A program made the translations under genes and the position numbers. A model generated the notes under the pieces. The model was given only the letters and a program-made list of their open reading frames with translations, did not search any database and was not told the DNA's origin. Below, piece by piece: positions 58,255 to 61,353 of a stretch of 64,000 nucleotides of DNA. Origin of the DNA: Bacteroidota bacterium (GTDB taxonomy: Bacteria; Bacteroidota; Ignavibacteria; Ignavibacteriales; Ignavibacteriaceae); contig JAJYDC010000011.1 of NCBI GenBank assembly GCA_021777835.1, forward strand, positions 1-64,000, in the 5' to 3' direction. The stretch's first letter is position 1. The number at the start of each line of letters is the position of its first letter.

Positions 58255-59427
58255 TTATAAGGTATTAAAAAAGTTTTTTATAATTCTAGTAAGTTGGTCG
58301 AATTCAATTAAAAAGGCGTCATGTCCAAAAATTGAATTTATCTCTGTATAAAATGAGTGCGGTATTTTTGAAGAAATTTCGATTTGTTCATCCGGCGGGT
58401 ATAATACATCCGTTGATATACCGATATTTAATGATTTGGCTTTTATACTTCCCAAAACTTCCTTTTCGGAGCCTCTTCTAAAGCTTACATCATGCAAATC
58501 CATTGCTTTAGTAATGTACAAATAAGTATTCGCATCAAAACGCTCGACTAATTTTTCCCCCTGATGCTGAAGATAACTCTGGATTTGAAATTTATAATCT
58601 TTAGAAATTAAATTTTCTTGCTGATCAAATATTTCTCTTCCAAATTTGCTATCAAATGATGACTTTGTGCGGTAACTAATCATAGCAATTTTCCTTGCTA
58701 AGCCCAGACCGTTTAAAGGCTGCTTTGAATAATTTCCATTGTCCCAAGCAACATCATTCATAATTGCATTTCTTGCAGTCTCATTTAATGCAATTCCCCA
58801 TGCAGAATGTTTTGCGGAAGTAGCAATTGGAATAATTGATTCAACAAAATCAGGATACATAATTGCCCATTCCAAGACCTGCATTCCGCCTAAAGAGCCG
58901 CCTGCAATAGAATACAGTCTATTTACTCCCAAAGTTCTCAAAAGTTCATACTGAACTCTGACCATATCTCTAACAGTAATGACAGGAAAATCCATTCCGT
59001 AAATTTCATTTGTAGACGGGTTAAGGCTAGCCGGACCAGTAGAGCCATAACATCCGGCGAGAAAATTCGGGCATATAACAAAGTATTTATTTGTATCAAA
59101 GGCTTTACCCGGGCCAATTAATTCATTCCACCAACCAGGTTTTCCAAAATTCATTCTATTGTATTTATCGAGAAATTCATACTTATACGAATTGTTTAAT
59201 TCATTTTCAGTAATTATTCCGGCAGCATGTGAATTTCCAGTTAAGGCATGACAAATCAAGATGGCATTATCACCTGATTCATTTAGTTCGCCATAAGTCT
59301 GATAAGCAGTCGTGACACGATTTAACACTTCTCCTGATTCTAATCGAAGAGAATTCTCTTTTGGAAAAAGTTCAACGAATTTTGTGAGAGCGACTATTTC
59401 AATTTTTTCTTTCAGGGTTAATTCCAT
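58255..59427 (-). CDS. metX: homoserine O-acetyltransferase
   Basis: [34 protein letters not shown]; start revised from 59499 to 59427 (MELTLKEK) because the longer N-terminus reads through a hairpin. Confidence 0.93.
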
Positions 59428-59474
59428 TTTTTTTATTCCGAAAGATAAATAATGTTTTGTTAAAGAAGTAAAAT

Positions 59475-59499
59475 TTGGGTGAGCTTTTGGCTCACCCAA
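59475..59499 (-). promoter_or_regulatory. intercistronic hairpin between metY and metX
   Basis: TTGGGTGAGC-5nt-GCTCACCCAA perfect 10-bp stem. Confidence 0.7.
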
Positions 59500-59551: not shown

Positions 59552-60904
<1,353 letters not shown>

Positions 60905-60940: not shown

Positions 60941-60977
60941 AAAAAAACCTCTTCGAGAAAGATTTGCGAAGAGGTTT
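60941..60977 (-). terminator. terminator of the SAM-I riboswitch expression platform
   Basis: minus strand AAACCTCTTCG...CGAAGAGGTTTTTTT, 11-bp stem plus T tract, 55 nt before metY. Confidence 0.92.
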
Positions 60978-60985
60978 ATAAGCAT

Positions 60986-61117
60986 CTTTTCTCATCTTTC
61001 CCTAAACTCCGGTAAAACCAAAGCGGGCAGGAAGTAGCACCACATTTTAATTTAATTTTGCATGGTTGCTAAGGTTTTCATCGGGCCTGTTCCCTCAACC
61101 TTTCTCGATAAGAGTCG
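60986..61117 (-). ncRNA. SAM-I (S-box) riboswitch aptamer
   Basis: minus strand CTCTTATCGAGAAAGGTTGAGGGAACAGGCCCGATGAAAACCTTAGCAACC...GGTGCTACTTCCTGCCC...GATGAGAA: matches S-box core, P1 closes with one wobble; upstream of metY-metX. Confidence 0.95.
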
Positions 61118-61149: not shown

Positions 61150-61186
61150 AAAAAAGCCCTTCTCGATTCGTTACCGGGAAGGGCTT
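61150..61186 (-). terminator. intrinsic terminator/attenuator downstream of the Cys/Met leader ORF
   Basis: minus strand AAGCCCTTC-15nt-GAAGGGCTT then TTTT; perfect 9-bp stem. Confidence 0.88.
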
Positions 61187-61210
61187 AATTTCAAAAATAT
61201 TTAAATTTGT

Positions 61211-61312
61211 TTAAGCAGTGTCCTTCCTGGATGACCTACACATCATCATACAGCAGCAACACATTGCTTTGTGATTTAATTCTTTTTTAATATTTACAAT
61301 TTTGTTCTTCAT
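61211..61312 (-). CDS. putative Cys/Met leader peptide MKNKIVNIKKELNHKAMCCCCMMMCRSSRKDTA
   Basis: 34-codon ORF (33 aa plus TAA) with TGT TGC TGC TGT ATG ATG ATG TGT followed by an attenuator-like terminator and SAM-I riboswitch upstream of metY; below the size cut-off of the supplied ORF track. Confidence 0.75.
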   Translation of the reverse strand: MKNKIVNIKKELNHKAMCCCCMMMCRSSRKDTA

Positions 61313-61324
61313 AATTTCTAAAGC

Positions 61325-61353
61325 AAATTAACCATTGAATGATTTCAAGTCAA
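61325..61353 (-). promoter_or_regulatory. candidate promoter TTGACT-N17-TAATTT for the leader transcript
   Basis: spacing of 17 nt on the minus strand, just upstream of the leader ORF; no experimental support. Confidence 0.4.

Follow-up and report, generated by a model that had tools for sequence, protein, structure and literature searches.

The 5′ leader of the metY–metX operon in this Ignavibacteriales genome is very probably a two-stage regulator, in which a ribosome-mediated attenuator of Cys/Met charging stands in series with a SAM-I riboswitch acting as an OFF switch. This reading is carried by features legible in the sequences: the anatomy and conservation of the leader, the co-occurrence of its short open reading frame (ORF) with a terminator, an antiterminator whose arms track each other between lineages, and codons that vary with context. 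In the window, by which we mean the whole 64,000-nucleotide stretch that was analyzed, the order on the minus strand, where all the features described here lie, is proC, promoter, leader ORF, first terminator (T1), SAM-I aptamer, second terminator (T2), metY, and metX. The immediate 5′ neighbor of the leader is proC, which has the same orientation and belongs to a thr-proC operon; a thr leader was sought near thrA and none was found. The regulated gene, metY (59552..60886), encodes O-acetylhomoserine sulfhydrylase (TIGR01326, E = 1.5e-210; PF01053), and metX (58255..59499; start codon uncertain) encodes homoserine O-acetyltransferase (NF001209, above cut-off). A presumed Bacteroidota-type promoter is formed by a putative −33 element, TTGAC (61349..61353), and a putative −7 element, TTAATTTG, of the TAnnTTTG type (61324..61331); among the 33 homologous leaders, nearly all have TTGAC-N17/18-TAnnTTTG located 8–29 nt 5′ of the ATG.

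The leader ORF (61211..61312) runs for 33 codons (MKNKIVNIKKELNHKAMCCCCMMMCRSSRKDTA) from an ATG at 61312 to a stop codon at 61213-61211, exactly where the first-pass annotation had drawn it, and has homologues at 33 SAM-I loci. Its peptide contains the stretch MCCCCMMMC, encoded by a regulatory tract, ATG TGT TGC TGC TGT ATG ATG ATG TGT (M17–C25; 61238..61264), supported by its Cys/Met enrichment and context dependence; the eight codons from TGT onward, which the annotation had already read, fall at 61261-61238. The tract ends eight codons 5′ of the stop. The six reading frames of the window hold no other run of at least five Cys or Met residues, and 60 Markov-simulated windows contained none. 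In the 33 homologous leaders, Cys and Met make up 34% of codons from codon 9 onward, versus 6% after shuffling; the ORF displays the run of product amino acid codons expected of a leader-peptide transcription attenuator. Codons 7–8, AAT ATT (N7 I8; 61289..61294), form a second conserved element: ATA occupies nucleotides +20 to +22 in 33/33 leaders, and codon 7 is AAT, once CAT, in each case at the same distance from the ATG. Asn is found at codon 7 in 32/33 leaders, a figure slightly favored because a few start codons were chosen partly for giving Asn7, and in 57 of a wider set of 65. To judge from the sequences, this conservation is a nucleotide-level signature (AAT/CAT, ATA). A MKxxNLNI-like start is shared by Kapabacteria leaders and, within the order, by many leaders of hisG. 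No NCBIfam family matched the Cys/Met leader or the his leader, and no Rfam leader family matched the leader at threshold.

Between the ORF and the structural gene lies an intrinsic terminator, T1 (61150..61186; −17.7 kcal/mol), identified from sequence and homologues. Its arms (61186-61178 / 61162-61154) and T run, 24 nt past the stop, agree with the first description of this locus, as does the pairing of CCAGGAAGG (61230-61222) with CCTTCCCGG (61182-61174) at eight of nine positions. A second helix of the antiterminator, in which GCTTAA (61216-61211) pairs with TTAAGC (61188-61183), had been missed. Region 2 (61211..61227) comprises GGAAGG (61227-61222) and GCTTAA, stop codon included, and region 3 (61177..61188) comprises TTAAGC and CCTTCC (61182-61177), overlapping the 5′ arm of T1. 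The duplex of region 2 with this arm is worth −12.9 kcal/mol (p = 0.03 versus shuffles), and the leader region as a whole folds with z = −4.3. The candidate anti-antiterminator, hairpin 1:2 (61213..61269; −18 to −19.7 kcal/mol), carries the Cys/Met codons in its 5′ arm and region 2 in its 3′ arm; its helix 66–71/78–83 (alignment A1) is 94% paired, with a covariation score matched by one of 500 shuffles.

A ribosome footprint extends ~13 nt ahead of the A-site codon. By this geometry, GGAAGG stays free while any codon of the tract, the last included, is in the A site, and it is covered by a ribosome on the stop codon; computationally, the antiterminator is thus freed by a stall and masked at the stop codon. 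As long as the 3′ arm of T1 has yet to be synthesized, the exposed RNA folds into the antiterminator (−14.6 to −20.7 kcal/mol), and at equilibrium T1 is favored (−17.7 versus −13.0 kcal/mol for the antiterminator). Because T1 outweighs the antiterminator at equilibrium, switching must depend on kinetics, as it does in classical attenuators. In the proposed first stage, poor charging of Cys-tRNA or Met-tRNA would stall the ribosome in the tract, which would open hairpin 1:2 and free region 2 to pair with the 5′ arm of T1 ahead of 3′ arm synthesis, letting RNA polymerase pass. With charged tRNAs, the ribosome would reach the stop codon and cover region 2, and T1 would form.

The second stage had been overlooked. 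Between T1 and metY lies a SAM-I aptamer (60989..61114; Rfam RF00162, E = 7.6e-13), scoring 65 bits against a gathering threshold of 44.4 bits, and it is followed before the gene by an expression platform with its own intrinsic terminator, T2 (about 60941..60977), a hairpin AACCTCTTCG..CGAAGAGGTT with a run of seven Ts. The T-box models of Rfam gave no match at E ≤ 1 to the whole window or to the leader, which is accordingly not classed as a T-box. The first-pass annotation had read the locus as an attenuator, and the joint occurrence of T1 and the ORF, antiterminator arms that track each other, and codons that follow function bear it out, but it was incomplete in lacking the riboswitch and T2. 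Its further claim, that formation of the antiterminator would allow metY and metX to be transcribed, holds for the antiterminator, supported by comparison, but leaves T2 downstream: relief of T1 alone is insufficient for metY transcription because a riboswitch with a second terminator comes after. Abundant SAM would cause the riboswitch to terminate at T2. With two OFF stages in series, expression of metY–metX would therefore require both a shortage of sulfur amino acids and a low SAM level. That the ORF is translated, that ribosomes stall on it, that polymerase reads through, and that SAM is bound are predictions from sequence, as are the resulting logic and a response to Cys or Met starvation.

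We surveyed 164 genomes of the order, mostly metagenome bins, in which 69 genomes hold 77 SAM-I loci; the upstream DNA was inspected at all 77, and leaders were sought by pattern and family searches. This survey for Cys/Met-rich ORFs before metY and cys genes, suggested by the first-pass annotation, found a short ORF with a Cys/Met-rich tract at 33/77 loci, with very divergent sequences (e.g., MKTENRNIISNKMAMCLCCMMMCISSRKDAA, MKLSNKNIPAQKLNSMHMMMCESEK, MKNEKQNIASKFNSMNACMCLCCINC, MIQHNRNIALMIMHMIMRMHIS). A T1-type hairpin, such as AGCCCTTC..GAAGGGCT, is found 3′ of the leader ORF, and hairpin and T run occur together in 32/33 cases (31 called by script and G128, with a weak T run, by eye). In G083 (L083), the Cys/Met leader and the T1 hairpin are kept and the T run is absent, so the hairpin is probably no longer an intrinsic terminator. 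SAM-I loci without the ORF also lack T1 and have a promoter directly 5′ of the aptamer; one of them (G125) has a single unrelated hairpin near the promoter, and in G036 the ORF and T1 have decayed jointly. ORF and terminator are thus conserved together and lost together, and a search for homologous loci that kept the terminator without the ORF, which would have spoken against the attenuator, left that reading standing. SAM-I aptamers before metH (L051, L102, L103, and similar loci of Ignavibacteriaceae) never carry a leader; these loci are divergent from a nucleotide-sugar-epimerase-like gene. At L147 and L260 (UBA1304), the leader, T1, and T2 are kept and the SAM-I aptamer has apparently shrunk to a P1-like stem, possibly by natural decay. 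One Cys/Met pattern match, in G014, was dismissed as chance, as no leader or met/cys gene was recognized beside it.

The antiterminator was compared between lineages. Across the 33 leaders, the segments that follow the tract pair with the 5′ arm of T1 more strongly than dinucleotide shuffles do (Fisher combined p 8e-20, from related loci), and the complementary motif itself varies by lineage: GGAAGG, AGGGCTT, CCGAAGG/CCTTCGG, GAAAGGG/CCCTTTC, and GTGAGAATG/CATTCTCAC. In a set of 30 leaders that extends to Kapabacteria and Balneolota, pairing is better with a leader's own T1 arm than with a swapped one (p = 5e-5); all these p-values are optimistic because the loci are phylogenetically related. 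The covariation check proposed for the alternative stems gave a divided outcome. The arms do track each other when swapped within the order (p = 1e-4), but in a genus-level alignment, where the second helix is formed in 71% of cells, the antiterminator pairing was equaled by 143/500 shuffles, the arms being too conserved for covariation.

A reading without attenuation would make T1 the terminator of the thr-proC operon, the ORF an accident, and the riboswitch the sole regulator of metY. The location of proC just upstream in the same direction fits it, as does the fact that SAM-I by itself suffices in many relatives; we nevertheless give it almost no credence. A promoter sits between proC and the ORF, which is conserved in frame with Cys/Met content far above chance. 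T1 is not the terminator of proC, because G034 has proC upstream but neither ORF nor T1, only a promoter directly before the aptamer. Nor is the leader–SAM-I unit the tail of proC, because it also stands, without proC too, 5′ of cysH-type sulfate assimilation operons (G009, G134, G150, G098); that of G009 encodes two PAPS-reductase-domain proteins, an EF-Tu-like (CysN-type) GTPase, and sulfite reductase.

What the ORF senses is addressed by its codons, which differ with the regulated pathway and the partner sensor. The median C/(C+M) is 0.44 in metY leaders with SAM-I, versus 0.10–0.17 in the Met-rich metY leaders without it (p = 5e-7, relatedness ignored), and Cys takes a larger share in cys-operon leaders than in metY leaders, whether SAM-I is absent (p = 4e-6) or present (p = 0.01; relatedness again ignored). 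It is otherwise hard to explain why codon content should vary with the target and with whether a SAM sensor is present, and the codons are therefore probably the signal. This variation also makes it very unlikely that the peptide acts by TnaC-like nascent-chain arrest or by metal or redox sensing in place of tRNA charging. Cys/Met-rich peptides can bind metals, and N-I at positions 7–8 is conserved and keeps a constant spacing from the start; against this, the tracts vary widely (CCCCMMMC, MIMHMIMRM, CC only), the spacing between N7 and the tract differs by about 2–10 residues, and the conservation of codons 7–8 is nucleotide-level and extends to his leaders. A further alternative, which we regard as doubtful, is that only Cys or only Met is sensed, the other codons being tolerated or serving RNA pairing (ATGATGATG/TCATC). 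It draws on the Met codons that make up the stem of hairpin 1:2 and on the existence of Cys-only and Met-only leaders (G128, G133), but both residues are enriched in most leaders, and unrelated leaders mix Cys and Met without the ATGATG/CATC pairing. The mixed Cys/Met-charging attenuator is the reading we retain.

Other arrangements of sensors were found at related loci. Among 20 metY loci of the order examined that lack an RF00162 match, 11 carry two leaders in tandem (Met-rich, at L261, L263-L268, and L273-L276), with a terminator after each in 10 and after the first only in one; a single leader is present at four others, and three have a SAM-I/IV aptamer instead. By sequence, it looks as if the second tandem leader replaced the SAM-I aptamer. 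Most sulfate assimilation (cysH) loci that lack SAM-I (among L281-L287, L289) have a Cys/Met leader and, 3′ of it, a second and longer uORF with CCC or CCCC at its end. The reverse order is seen at 15 loci, mainly in Cyclobacteriaceae (L165, L167, L168, L171, L174, L175, L178-L183, L186, L192, L198), where a SAM-I aptamer precedes a uORF of ~35–49 aa that starts 8–14 nt past the aptamer, ends in CCC to CCCCCC, and is followed by metY. On balance, we favor the view that the sulfur sensors of Bacteroidota are modular and stackable: Cys/Met leaders, SAM-I aptamers, and uORFs with C-terminal poly-Cys would be exchanged between two slots, tuning each operon, and the codons of the leader would adapt to its partner sensor. 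Leader plus SAM-I, leader plus leader, SAM-I plus poly-Cys uORF, and leader plus poly-Cys uORF would all be products of the same scheme.

The leader shares with the trp, his, and leu attenuators a short ORF with pathway codons, a hairpin 1:2, an antiterminator 2:3, a terminator 3:4, and a stop codon by region 2; it differs from them in its mixed Cys and Met codons, its metY/cys target, and the downstream SAM-I riboswitch with a second terminator. The mycobacterial polycysteine short ORFs (Canestrari 2020, as cited by PMC13236596; first seen in PMC1262725) likewise place Cys codons before sulfur genes. Those ORFs end close to their Cys run and were found to lack an intrinsic terminator (PMC1262725), unlike the leader described here, whose tract is internal, mixed with Met, and followed by an intrinsic terminator with an antiterminator, so that it falls outside the mycobacterial type. 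The nearest published logic is that of the nine SAM-I/T-box(Met) tandem gates (PMC9481103), which read the same inputs, methionine charging and SAM, in series; in our case, a translating ribosome, not a T-box RNA, would read charging, of Cys as well as Met. Leader-ORF tandems could not have been counted in that survey, which required that no ORF intervene. The SAM-I/AdoCbl tandem riboswitches, a NOR gate described in the same work (PMC9481103), likewise combine SAM-I in series with another, independent OFF device upstream of a methionine gene; that device is a metabolite aptamer. The Xanthomonas SAM-I riboswitch, which also senses uncharged initiator tRNA (PMC7270179), similarly joins SAM to methionine-tRNA status, but through one translational platform, versus two transcription terminators here. 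Bacteroidota leader peptides are mentioned in general terms only (PMC9723704, PMC7366714).

A search of mainly openly accessible papers turned up no tandem of leader peptide and SAM-I, and the one described here appears to be the first of its kind. It would extend leader-peptide attenuation, with a mixed Cys and Met sensor, to a phylum where it has scarcely been described, and would offer a naturally occurring gate with two inputs, tRNA charging and the end product, each read on its own. In relatives, a second Met leader has apparently taken the place of the SAM aptamer, which would amount to a natural experiment on the swapping of regulatory RNA modules. The source genome also carries a his leader, MKKENLNITVTGHAHHHHHYFIDAGRS (MKKENLNI...HHHHH), with a terminator, before hisG (L106/L211, G000:C42:10585), and this style of attenuation is therefore in use elsewhere in the same genome.
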